This document shows positions 16,811 through 19,674 of a stretch of 22,103 bases of DNA, in pieces. Position numbers and translations under genes: made by a program. Every line of letters starts with the position of its first letter. The first letter of the stretch is position 1. Under the pieces are notes generated by a model, which saw only the letters and a list, made by a program, of their open reading frames with translations, was not told where the DNA came from and did no database searches. Source of the stretch: a virus; the IMG/VR virus record IMGVR_UViG_3300042387_000020, positions 1-22,103 of that record; one strand, written 5' to 3'.

Positions 16811-16842
16811 TGTTAGAAAAGAGAGAGAAGTTAATAATTCTC

Positions 16843-16856
16843 CCTAACCGGTTAGG
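16843..16856. repeat. 14-bp perfect palindrome in the capsid-gene leader
   Basis: CCTAACCGGTTAGG is a perfect 14-bp palindrome, flanked by AATT on both sides with a 3-nt offset. In RNA it could form a 5-bp stem with a CCGG tetraloop 33 nt before the capsid ATG. On the transcribed strand it continues as TTAGGGAGA, resembling the TATAGGGAGA initiation end of T7 promoters. It could be an mRNA-stabilising or processing hairpin, or an operator-like site. Confidence 0.65.
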
Positions 16857-16942
16857 AATTCACAAGACGCGATGTCATGTGCATTCAAGTGTTTTTGTGT
16901 TTGTCTGTCTCTCCAGACTGTCAATGACTAAAGGGTATCCGC

Positions 16943-16963
16943 CTTGGCGGGCCAATAGCCAAG
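16943..16963. repeat. Inverted repeat CTTGGC/GCCAAG
   Basis: A perfect 6-bp inverted repeat with a 9-nt loop. Its left arm also lies within the near-palindrome CCGCCTTGGCGG (16940-16951), so two alternative hairpins compete. No U-run follows on the transcribed strand. It sits between the two candidate promoter elements. Confidence 0.6.
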
Positions 16964-16996
16964 AGAAAGGGGGTCCGACACTGAGGTGCCCCCAAT
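16946..16996 (-). promoter_or_regulatory. Candidate phage RNA polymerase promoter elements
   Basis: Two ATTGG-type elements lie here on the transcribed strand: ATTGGGGGCACC (16996 to 16985) and ATTGGCCCGCC (16956 to 16946). They partly resemble the promoter reported for cyanophage Syn5 RNA polymerase as I recall it (ATTGGGCACCCGTAA): the first shares ATTGGG and CACC but with two extra Gs and a different 3' part. Placement just upstream of the capsid gene fits a phage late promoter. The match is imperfect, so this is only a candidate. Confidence 0.3.
16961..16993 (-). terminator. Weak terminator-like hairpin after the fibre-accessory gene
   Basis: On the transcribed strand GGGGG (16993-16989) pairs with CCCCC (16973-16969), with two more CC/GG pairs inside across a small internal loop. 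TTTCTCTT follows directly. The stem is short and the U-run is interrupted, so it would be a weak terminator at best; it could equally be a structured element associated with the promoter. Confidence 0.35.
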
Positions 16997-17000
16997 CCAG

Positions 17001-17222
17001 TTATTGATTTGACAGAAGAGCTAATAGTACTTCCTTCTGTTCAGAGGTTAATGCCGCCAACGGATCAGCATCAGGTTCCTGTTGAGATTCACTGAAAATT
17101 GGATGCTGGCTATCAGGATCAGCAATAGCTGTACACCCGTCTGGTGGTTGCCAGTCAGTTTCACCATCCCAAAGAACACGGTTAATGCACTGACCTTCAG
17201 AATTAAGAATTGCGTATTGCAT
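17001..17222 (-). CDS. Small fibre-accessory-like protein, 73 aa
   Basis: The N-terminal part (MQYAILNSEGQCINRVLWDG, then WQPPDGCTAIAD) follows a pattern common in small phage proteins encoded beside fibre genes: a beta strand, a 'WDG' turn and a 'PPxGxxAI' segment. The C-terminal helix (LTSEQKEVLLALLSNQ) resembles the end of the 153-aa protein that follows the tail fibre at 1499-1960. I chose ATG at 17222, two nt after the stop of the glycine-rich gene; an upstream in-frame TTG at 17231 would overlap that gene and is less likely. A role in folding or attaching the glycine-rich fibre is inferred from position and this resemblance; no activity can be read from the sequence. Confidence 0.7.
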   Translation of the reverse strand: MQYAILNSEGQCINRVLWDGETDWQPPDGCTAIADPDSQHPIFSESQQEPDADPLAALTSEQKEVLLALLSNQ

Positions 17223-17224
17223 GG

Positions 17225-18373
17225 TCACCAAGCCCAGATACGAACAACGCCAGAACCTCCGTTGCCACCAGCGCCGGAGTTGAAGCCATTGGTGCTGGCC
17301 GCACCGCCACCGCCACCGCCACCAGGGAAGGCGCCAGCGCCACCACTACCTGAAGCAGCAGTAGTGGAGGCAGCGCCGCTACCACCACCATCGCCATAGG
17401 TTGGGCCATTGCCACCACTACCACCGGTTAAACCACCACTACCACCGCCGCCAATACCGGATGCATTAAAGGCGCTGTTTTTCTGCTCAGCGAAACCTTG
17501 ACCACCAGTGCCGCCGGCATTAGCCACATTGCTTGTGCTAATACCGCCACCACCTGCCCCGCCTCCTGGACCTAGTGACGCTCTATTCCCAGAACCTCCA
17601 AGGCCTCCAGATGAACCACCAGATCCACCAGCAGCAGCAAATAACCCACTGATTGAGTTGCCGTAGTAAGAAATTATTCCTCCAGGGCCAGTGGTTGATG
17701 CGCCACCGCTACCACCCTTTGCTGCTGGCACAATTAACAAACTACCGAATGATGATGATCCACCATTGATACCGGTGACTCCATCTGTGTTATCAGTAGT
17801 TACTGCAGAACCGCCAGCACCACCTGCACCAACGGTTACGGTTTCAGTGCTACCGGCAGCTGATGCGACAATCATGCGGCTGACAAACTTCCCACTTGCT
17901 CCACCACCACCGCCAGTTCGTGCGGTAGACGGGGCACCACGCCGACCAGAAGCACCACCACCACCGCCAGCAACAACCTCGATGTAAAGTATGGTCACAC
18001 CCGCAGGCTTCGTCCAGGTGCCACTGCTGGTGAACTCTTGGTAGTTTGCAGCACTACTTCCGCCACCACCACCACCACCAGTTGCAGACAATGTCCCACT
18101 TGTCAGGGAAAGGCCAGAGCCAACGCTGATCTCCTCAGCCACACCCGTGCCAGCTGTCGAGCGGCCCAGCAGCTTCCCGGTGCCCATGCTGGTGCTGACG
18201 GTTTGCGTGCCGCTGTCGTAGGCGATCGGAGCTGTGGCAGCGACCACGCCAGCAGGTCCCTGCGGGCCGGTGGCACCCGTTGCACCCGTTGCACCAGTCG
18301 GCCCAGCAGGTCCTGTTGTGCCAGCTCCAACTTCATCAAAACTATTAGTAAATGGATTAAGTCTATACGGCAT
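17225..18373 (-). CDS. Collagen/glycine-rich fibre-like protein (candidate adhesin)
   Basis: The 382-aa protein has, in order: an N-terminal motif MPYRLNPFTNSFDEV shared with the upstream collagen-like protein; a short Gly-X-Y run (GPAGPTGATGATGATGPQG, about 21-39); a linker (KLLGRSTAGTGVAEEISVGS, near 70-90) typical of phage fibres; a seven-Gly hinge; and a domain starting EFTSSGTWTKPAGV followed by VEVVAGGGGGA. This last pattern belongs to the glycine-rich phage tail domains whose Gly-rich stretches can pack as polyglycine-II helices, as in the S16 gp38 adhesin tip. From about residue 105 to the end the protein is dominated by GG and GGGG runs and finishes VVRIWAW. Five nt separate it from the collagen gene. 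The linker region is much richer in GC than its surroundings. A receptor-binding or surface-fibre role is inferred. Confidence 0.85.
   Translation of the reverse strand: MPYRLNPFTNSFDEVGAGTTGPAGPTGATGATGATGPQGPAGVVAATAPIAYDSGTQTVSTSMGTGKLLGRSTAGTGVAEEISVGSGLSLTSGTLSATGGGGGGGSSAANYQEFTSSGTWTKPAGVTILYIEVVAGGGGGASGRRGAPSTARTGGGGGASGKFVSRMIVASAAGSTETVTVGAGGAGGSAVTTDNTDGVTGINGGSSSFGSLLIVPAAKGGSGGASTTGPGGIISYYGNSISGLFAAAGGSGGSSGGLGGSGNRASLGPGGGAGGGGISTSNVANAGGTGGQGFAEQKNSAFNASGIGGGGSGGLTGGSGGNGPTYGDGGGSGAASTTAASGSGGAGAFPGGGGGGGAASTNGFNSGAGGNGGSGVVRIWAW
18057..18082 (-). repeat. CCA/CCG triplet run encoding poly-glycine
   Basis: On the plus strand this is a run of CCG and CCA triplets, specifying seven consecutive Gly residues between the linker and the glycine-rich domain. 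Similar shorter runs recur near 17303-17325, 17899-17912 and 17957-17972. Slippage in such runs would change length in multiples of three and keep the frame. Confidence 0.75.
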
Positions 18374-18378
18374 GATAT

Positions 18379-18936
18379 TTAGTTATGTTGAACAGTAATA
18401 CCACCGGCTACCCAACCACGTTGCTGAGGCGATGAATCACCTGTGTACTGAACTCTGCCTGGAGGGCCTGGAGGACCAGATACGCCTGGCTTACCTTGTG
18501 GTCCTTGTGGCCCTGGAGGACCCATGGGACCGCGATCTCCACAAGGACCACGCTCACCATCCAGACCATGACTACCATTCACACCGGGCTGTCCTTGTGG
18601 TCCAATCAGAGAGACCCCTTGTGGCCAACCGTTAGCGGACTTAGGTCCGTAGATTAACCAACTCTGGTGGTTGATATAGAATTGACCAATCTCTCCCATG
18701 AATGGAGAAGGAGGGTTGGTACCACTAAGAATACCAAGCCCATCCTTTCCATTTACTCCCGGTGAGCCAGTCTCACCTTTAGGTCCTACAGGCCCCTGCG
18801 GTCCTGCCTCTCCTCGTACACCTTGTTCACCATCAAGACCAGGTTCACCGGGTTCACCGGGTTCACCTGGAGGTCCAGGCGGTGCGTACTCAGGTACAAA
18901 TGATAAGGAGCCTGTAATAGGATTTAGTCTAAACAT
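18379..18936 (-). CDS. Collagen-like repeat protein (candidate head or tail fibre)
   Basis: The 185-aa protein has two runs of Gly-X-Y triplets, at about 20-68 ([20 protein letters not shown] onward) and 113-161, which would form a collagen-type triple helix. Between them lies a short folded module ([20 protein letters not shown]) of a kind seen in other collagen-like phage and bacterial proteins. The N-terminus, [14 protein letters not shown], resembles that of the next gene and may be an attachment peptide. The C-terminus ([14 protein letters not shown]) is non-collagenous and could serve as trimerisation tip. One Cys lies inside the second triplet run (GPCGDRG). The start overlaps the preceding stop (TAATG). 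A surface fibre or decoration protein is the best reading; collagen-like head fibres adjacent to capsid genes are known in phi29 (gp8.5). Confidence 0.85.
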
Positions 18937-19151
18937 TACGAGATACGGATCACGCTGACTAGATAACCGTTAGCGTCGTAGGTCATATTGACGGTTGATA
19001 CAATCTGACCACTTGCGCCACCCGCTCTGTAAACGACAGTAGTTGGGTTTCCATTAGCATCGTTGGTGATGCTGATGTAGTCGTGTTCGGGTACGCTTAG
19101 ACCCGTCTCCATCTGTCGGCTTGAGTACCGACCTGTTGCAATGTTAGCCAT
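18936..19151 (-). CDS. Hypothetical 71-aa small virion-type protein
   Basis: The protein has a beta-rich pattern: DYISITND at 24-31, TTVVYRAGG at 37-45, then [19 protein letters not shown]. This looks like a short antiparallel sheet of the TYDxNGxLxSV kind common in small phage structural proteins, but I cannot name a family. It begins 21 nt after the stop of the 64-aa gene, and its stop overlaps the start of the collagen-like gene as TAATG, so the two are probably translationally coupled. That coupling suggests the product works with, or in the same structure as, the collagen-like protein. No ribosome-binding site is evident. Confidence 0.72.
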
Positions 19152-19172
19152 TTAGTTTGTGATGTCAGTTAA

Positions 19173-19367
19173 TCAGGCCCAAGCACCTGCATACGGGGCA
19201 ACATCATCCAAGGTTCCAGGTTCACATGTTGCACCCTTTGGGCTCAATTCAGTGAGGGTGGTTCCAGCATAGGGGTAGATGAATGCACCAGATGTGCTGG
19301 TAGGTGCACAGTATTGAACCTTCGCTACCGAAGAGTTCTTTGGATCAAACGGGTTTGCTCGTGCCAT
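19173..19367 (-). CDS. Hypothetical 64-aa protein
   Basis: I do not recognise this protein. It starts one base after the stop of the RlpA-like gene, which supports it as a real, co-translated gene. It opens with MARANPFDPKNSSVAKV, has two cysteines (CAP at about 20 and TCEP at about 48), several Pro/Gly turns and an Ala/Trp C-terminus (YAGAWA). There is no membrane segment or coiled coil. The composition (Ser, Thr, Gly, Ala, Pro with few charges) resembles small virion structural proteins. Its position in the scaffold-capsid interval with fibre-like genes suggests a structural or accessory role, which is inference only. Confidence 0.72.
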   Translation of the reverse strand: MARANPFDPKNSSVAKVQYCAPTSTSGAFIYPYAGTTLTELSPKGATCEPGTLDDVAPYAGAWA

Positions 19368-19368
19368 T

Positions 19369-19674
19369 CTATTTAATGGGTGTGATGGTTACTTGACCTA
19401 CACCTACACTCCTCAAGCCAATCGCATCAGCTGCTGCCCTACTCAAATCAATATCACGACCATGAACAAAAGGTCCACGATCATTAATAGTGACATTGGT
19501 ACACCTCTTGGTTGAGGTGCTACACACTCGGACTTTGGTTCCAAATGGGAGTGTGCGGTGAGCAGCTGTGTGTGCATTCATGTTGTAGATCTCACCGGAG
19601 GCGGTGCGTCTACCGTGATATGGAATGCCATACCACGAAGCGAGAGAAGCAAGTGTAAGTGTCAGAGTTAGCAT
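19369..19674 (-). CDS. RlpA-like double-psi beta-barrel protein (putative lytic transglycosylase)
   Basis: RlpA-family domains cleave glycan strands of peptidoglycan, classically those lacking stem peptides. The 101-aa protein is almost entirely this domain. It opens with ASWYG (12-16) and continues with RTASGE (23-28), AAHRTLPFGTKVRV (37-50), NDRGPFVHGRDIDLSRAAA (64-82) and a final G-x-G-x-V strand. Residues corresponding to the active-site positions described for bacterial RlpA are present: E28, H39 and D65. Two cysteines (C51, C58) flank a short loop. The first 12 residues (MLTLTLTLASLA) are hydrophobic but lack the charged n-region of a signal peptide and the SPOR domain of cellular RlpA is absent. 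An in-frame TGA just upstream fixes the start. Lying between scaffold and capsid genes, it may be a virion-borne entry enzyme or an extra lysis enzyme. Confidence 0.88.
   Translation of the reverse strand: MLTLTLTLASLASWYGIPYHGRRTASGEIYNMNAHTAAHRTLPFGTKVRVCSTSTKRCTNVTINDRGPFVHGRDIDLSRAAADAIGLRSVGVGQVTITPIK

Follow-up and report, generated by a model that had tools for sequence, protein, structure and literature searches.

The window analysed here is the whole of a 22,103-nucleotide (nt) stretch, positions 1 to 22,103 of the IMG/VR virus record IMGVR_UViG_3300042387_000020, from a virus whose hosts are probably blue-green algae (cyanobacteria). Six minus-strand open reading frames (ORFs) lie at 17001-19674, between the scaffold and capsid genes, and encode in order an RlpA-like enzyme, two small proteins that we call P64 and P71, a collagen-like protein (COL), a glycine-rich protein (GLY) and a third small protein, P73 (Table 1). 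An original prediction had described this layout correctly. Its flanking genes are a scaffold gene (PF05396, 1.5e-7; phrog_1052, 4.1e-53) and a capsid gene (PF21703, 1.7e-84), and the tight packing that it had given as gaps of 1-21 nt with one TAATG overlap was measured as spacings of 1, 21, -1 (TAATG), 5 and 2 nt. The scaffold gene is separated from the RlpA gene by 52 nt and the P73 gene from the capsid gene by 190 nt; a scan of the latter stretch found no promoter-like or terminator-like sites above shuffled background. The ORFs look like real genes, and for five of the six the NG86 ratio dN/dS (nonsynonymous to synonymous substitution) was 0.025-0.155 in comparisons with the relatives S-SRP01, L178 or L258 (L numbers denote our loci), these ratios being rough because dS is high (0.9-2.1); P73 gave no computable dS. 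P64 had no family match in Pfam/PHROG-type searches, and no title on this six-gene block was found among open-licence papers.

Table 1. Features of the six-gene block in the window (aa, amino acids).
Feature	Position	Strand	Evidence and remarks
RlpA-like double-psi beta-barrel enzyme, 101 aa	19369..19674	-	PF03330 5.6e-25; slot resident, outside adhesin core
P64, 64 aa, first core gene	19173..19367	-	S-SRP01 81%, DSL-LC07 56%; also found without adhesins
P71, one YD/RHS-like beta-meander, candidate adaptor/chaperone for tagged fibre proteins	18936..19151	-	phrog_26903 2.2e-12
COL, 185-aa collagen-like protein, N-terminal tag MFRLNPITG, candidate shaft	18379..18936	-	PF01391 8.6e-20
GLY, tag MPYRLNPFTN, short collagen-like linker, glycine-rich tip (~residues 107-382)	17225..18373	-	PF21722 1.1e-6
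P73, 73 aa, ATG start, tip partner, candidate tip chaperone/cap	17001..17222	-	phrog_14370 0.0035 (weak)
Intergenic stretch before capsid gene	16811..17000	-	similar stretch in S-SRP01, by eye

We compared the block with loci collected using capsid, scaffold, P71, GLY and COL queries (for the first three, the best 80 of 385, 80 of 100 and 80 of 489 confirmed matches). The comparison set held 67 scaffold-capsid intervals including the window; intervals sharing an exact 400-nt stretch were removed and near-duplicates remain. Because the loci were selected by query and the best 80 per scan were kept, the interval counts given here are not natural frequencies. RlpA is encoded in 42 of the intervals, psbA in 27 and P71 in 14. 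P64 is present in 12 of the 14 P71-bearing intervals and in 23 of the other 53, and 12 of the 14 show the order P64, P71, COL. Minor departures include a shortened COL in L184 and a 69-aa ORF between P64 and P71 in L178; in L039 (same contig as L208) and L270, P64 is absent and another protein bearing the N-terminal tag described below follows P71. COL lies directly 3' of P71 in the nearest relatives. Beyond this core the content is variable, comprising tagged proteins of 230-538 aa, a 145-aa protein paired with one of 392, 419 or 437 aa, proteins of 291 or 292 aa, or a beta-propeller set. P71 itself has a weak RHS_repeat match, below Pfam's cut-off. Its AlphaFold model (mean pLDDT 82.9, core ~93) is a four-stranded meander like one YD/RHS repeat, and RHS/teneurin-like chains head its VIA-align rows, with Z not above 4.6; this likeness may reflect only a common strand arrangement.

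The product encoded after P71 starts in a characteristic way, with a tag of the form xFNPFTGxLD or a variant of it. A motif resembling FNPFTGNLD opens the product of the ORF after P71 in each of seven annotated phages, where P71 is labelled 'hypothetical' in 7/7 and its tagged neighbour in 6/7. The S-TIM5 annotation labels the tagged successor of P71 a virion structural protein (the ground of the label was not seen). A larger set was provided by 79 P71 loci from an IMG/VR scan, L231 being excluded for its cut match. The next ORF was readable in 76 of these, the NPFTG pattern accounting for 51, the DVATG pattern for 22 and near-variants for 3; among the non-successor ORFs of the same loci the tag was matched by 8 of 549, each of them the next gene after COL. 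Beyond residue 25, the 56 unique successors fall into 11 BLAST clusters. Tag-like stretches were also seen elsewhere: an 83-aa protein after P71 at L175:4195-4446 has about three in succession, and a tail-fibre-assembly-like protein at 1499-1960 of the window starts with HPVTGEYL, which is similar to the tag.

The glycine-rich tip of GLY has relatives in different gene neighbourhoods. Its Gly_rich_2 domain (PF21722) scored 29.2 bits against a curated cut-off of 24.3. A single scan for GLY relatives gave 15 loci, of which 13 were read, several of them near-identical pairs. The neighbourhoods of most of the 13, judged from ORF starts only, are unlike that of the window, and contigs of other gene neighbourhoods carry the tip with identities reaching 71%. 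In L258 it is fused to an Mtd_N domain (PF18454, 6e-11) and collagen repeats, with 71% identity from residue 18 on. By eye, 10 of the 13 loci have a P73-like ORF after the tip, two leave the contig, and none was seen in L266; a P73-like ORF (56%) also occurs in L182/L183. Among published phages P73 matched only Burkholderia phage Magia, in two records and over 31 residues. The tip profile matched the Bxb1 'tail wing brush, gp33' (PDB 9d93) at 1e-7, and a Foldseek comparison of the GLY AlphaFold model, made with the PDB only, returned Bxb1 gp33 (6.9e-9) and the fibre of cyanophage Pam3 (2.5e-5). Polyproline-II bundles in Bxb1 gp33 and the Pam3-type cyanophage fibre (7YFW) are likened to the S16 tail protein/adhesin in the available part of one report (PMC13243192). 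The expectation that adhesin-like products are encoded together here is supported.

Other parts of the original prediction fared less well, among them the view of the block as an insertion into a normally closed junction. Adjacency of scaffold and capsid genes, supposed for most cyanopodoviruses, holds for Syn5, which has no gene annotated between the two, but not for the six psbA-bearing records examined (S-CBP1, S-CBP3, S-CBP4, DSL-LC07, NATL1A-7 and P-SSP7), each of which has psbA and an hli match in this interval. We therefore rejected the closed-junction interpretation, since relatives already carry hli, RlpA and psbA in the same place. The part of the literature available to us states that every phage of the MPP-B group analysed by then encodes psbA (PMC4646655), and the window has accessory genes in the MPP-B cargo position, between scaffold and capsid genes. 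This interval thus represents a cargo slot of this cyanopodovirus lineage. We did not find psbA within the 22.1-kb window, a stretch that covers part of the genome, and whole-record searches found it absent from 6 of 10 relatives' records, including the complete S-SRP01. Mutual exclusion of psbA and adhesins, which was suspected at first, was rejected because 6 of the 67 intervals hold both psbA and P71; in L181 and L184 RlpA-psbA comes after the adhesins. Some slots lack P71 and carry other large proteins. L035 encodes a 610-aa protein with a PHROG tail protein match (1e-111), and slot proteins of 292 aa (L188) and 552 aa (L194) had no PHROG match. Several intervals without RlpA (L006, L050, L068, L077, L087 and others) encode proteins of 118-124 aa (MKKLALxLA-like start) and 159-184 aa (MPFTNNTTYGT-like start) before the capsid gene, perhaps another surface pair. 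Separately, in a close relative, a group I intron breaks the major capsid gene at L035:6589-6821 (Rfam RF00028, 100 bits; frame interrupted by stops), and L036 shows the same broken capsid match, Rfam having been run on L035 only.

The same intervals speak to the place of RlpA, which had been counted among the members of the adhesin unit. A single functional unit, in which RlpA would be the glycan-cleaving arm of the adhesin, would agree with its adjacent, co-directional gene in the window and in S-SRP01, and with the RlpA-like domain built into the hub of cyanophage A-1(L). We nevertheless regard it as very unlikely, and rejected RlpA as a member of the adhesin unit on the interval counts and its position next to psbA. 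Specifically, 29 of 42 RlpA-bearing intervals lack P71, while P71 occurs without RlpA in L270 alone among the 14 P71-bearing intervals. RlpA is upstream of psbA in 17 of the 17 intervals having both, 4-11 nt apart in 15 and 325 or 395 nt apart in L192 and L052; in L181 and L184 it lies past the adhesins, 11 nt before psbA. Records of S-CBP1/3/4 also contain RlpA genes, unannotated, between hli and psbA, in 6 of 9 records.

The window RlpA matched PDB 4avr (1.7e-25) and the A-1(L) hub, 8kea (1.4e-11), the RlpA-like stretch lying inside the hub protein. Its double-psi beta-barrel domain carries E28, H39 and D65, which we take to be the catalytic residues; in an alignment of 47 RlpA rows, counting the window and its twin L257, every row has H39 and D65, and 36 have E28. 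The N-terminus, MLTLTLTLASLASWYG, has no cysteine for a lipobox lipoprotein signal, and we therefore speak of an RlpA-like domain rather than a lipoprotein. The hub domain containing the RlpA-like stretch is named an endoglucanase by its authors and hydrolyses host cells, according to the available part of their paper (PMC10966104). A separate glucosaminidase gene at 287-1264 (PF01832) is the likelier source of the lysis enzyme. RlpA is likely to have a cell-wall role that is not tied to the adhesins, in which it may be active at one or another stage of infection.

Position among head genes had been offered as evidence that the products attach to the head. Capsid appendages for comparison are the phi29 head fibre and the Syn5 horn, and the block does adjoin the capsid gene; in KBS-S-2A, moreover, the P71 unit lies two genes after the coat protein gene. 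Proteins decorating the capsid in this manner seem rather unlikely to us, however. The slot is shared with psbA, which is not a head gene, and at 10 of 80 P71 loci a T7-like tail-fibre match precedes the cassette or P71 unit. One of these, L186, has P64-P71-COL (84, 82 and 60% identical to the window) at a tail-fibre locus, where the genes upstream encode a T7-like tail fibre, a protein of 268 aa and a tail-assembly chaperone (PF16778); 9 further P71 loci have the tail-fibre match upstream. Because cassettes occur in head-gene and in tail-gene neighbourhoods, position cannot decide the site of the product, and the argument from placement does not hold.

Syn5 offers a further comparison. Its gp53 and gp54, which we take to form the horn, are encoded ~17 kb past the capsid gene, and directly upstream of them lies the gene of a small YD-like protein, gp52 (L176:10139-10483). 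The fold match of gp52 to P71, which would favour a head appendage, is weak (Foldseek rank 49, probability 0.99, E 0.47), and no homology by sequence was detected, the hhalign profile probability being 1.5%.

For side fibres of the tail or neck, with the cassette as a second receptor-binding set beside the T7-like fibre, we see about an even chance. The window does encode a separate T7-like fibre with PF03906 (1964-4402). The PF03906 N-terminal domain typical of T7-type (gp17) fibres is absent from COL and GLY, in which only Collagen and Gly_rich_2 were found. Cassette copies at tail-fibre loci, the PHROG tail matches and the fold match of the GLY model to tail-tip and fibre chains all argue for this placement. 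On the other side, the scaffold/psbA/capsid context is commoner among the 80 P71 loci than the tail-fibre context (25 vs 10), and the attachment site is a prediction from gene content. Our preference, held with low certainty, is for the tail or neck and not the head.

Wherever the products attach, we consider it fairly probable that the block contains a fibre (virion adhesin) cassette with interchangeable tips, standing beside a resident RlpA in the cargo slot of a cyanopodovirus lineage. Of the first interpretation, then, the adhesin-like set stands, and the closed-junction insertion, the membership of RlpA and the step from position to head do not. In the proposed mechanism, COL and GLY would dock to the particle via a common N-terminal tag, x[FL]NP[FI]TxxL, with P71 as a putative adaptor or assembly partner. 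COL would form a collagen-like shaft, and GLY would present a tip of polyglycine type to contact the host surface and perhaps bind a receptor there, P73 serving as a possible folding partner or cap. Swapping of the GLY-P73 pair between phages would then change host recognition, and RlpA would attack cell-wall glycan during entry or lysis without depending on the adhesins.

Several points weigh against this interpretation. The presence of the six products in the virion is a prediction, and P71 might instead serve as a chaperone or regulator and stay out of the particle. The first tag patterns were written post hoc, with the list already seen; the test was therefore repeated with a score for which the seven annotated phages were the sole training set. 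The best of 531 controls was outscored by 38 of 44 unique NP-type successors but by only 1 of 15 of the DVATG type, a variant that this score misses; overall 39 of 59 successors exceed the best control, with an area under the curve (AUC) of 0.942; 52 ORFs one place further downstream were kept apart, and 8 of them also exceed the best control. Of the 80 P71 loci, themselves the best of 489 matches in scans of larger lists, 45 have no recognised neighbour. The GLY model has a mean pLDDT of 59 (73-92 only in ~111-220 and 331-382), and its TM-scores, taken by query, are 0.34 (Bxb1) and 0.29 (Pam3 fibre).

The first of these points would also suit genes acting in or on the infected cell rather than in the virion, like psbA and hli cargo, as would the metabolic cargo that shares the slot (by the interval counts and the available part of PMC4646655). 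Such a role appears decidedly unlikely, given the collagen and glycine-rich tip architecture, the Mtd_N fusion in L258, the match to virion proteins and the virion structural annotation in S-TIM5.

Parts of the block are already on record. The freshwater-reservoir phage S-SRP01 (MW015080) shares the order and placement of RlpA, P64, P71 and COL with the window (84, 81, 92 and 70% identity), and with four of its six genes in that public record the block is not categorically new. Unlike the window, S-SRP01 ends in a gene for a 291-aa protein that is not glycine-rich, and P73 is not listed; RlpA, lytic transglycosylase and collagen are not mentioned in the available portion of the main text of its paper (PMC8557907). 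The hli-psbA interval of MPP-B phages (S-CBP1/3/4, P-SSP7) is the same interval, in S-CBP1/3/4 also with RlpA, but with photosynthesis genes in place of adhesins. The glycine-rich tip is common to GLY, the Bxb1 gp33 tail wing brush and the Pam3 fibre (in the literature, the S16 adhesin), whereas GLY starts with an NPFTN tag and a collagen-like linker. A link to BPP-1 Mtd, the major tropism determinant of that phage, comes from L258, which joins an Mtd_N domain to the same tip; GLY has the NPFTN tag in its place. The Syn5 horn genes, with the small gp52 gene directly upstream, are not between scaffold and capsid genes.

These comparisons indicate a composite in which a resident enzyme is joined by an exchangeable fibre cassette, the slot being filled with photosynthesis cargo in relatives, and place the block in a wider family of fibre cassettes rather than as a one-off head appendage. 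Since the slot holds photosynthesis cargo, attachment genes or both, the value of each is testable in isolates like S-SRP01. The main interest lies in the pairing of P71 with the tag, which we do not claim to be unpublished, and in the exchange of tips. The host range of cyanophages matters ecologically and is difficult to infer from genome sequences, and a short tag with a small marker gene, P71, could reveal fibre genes that annotation has missed. Tentatively, and with more doubt than confidence, we suggest that P71 and the NPFTG tag may be a cyanophage plug and socket, a tiny adaptor accepting any tagged fibre. If so, phages of different tail types could trade host-recognition proteins, also into the slot of the photosynthesis genes.

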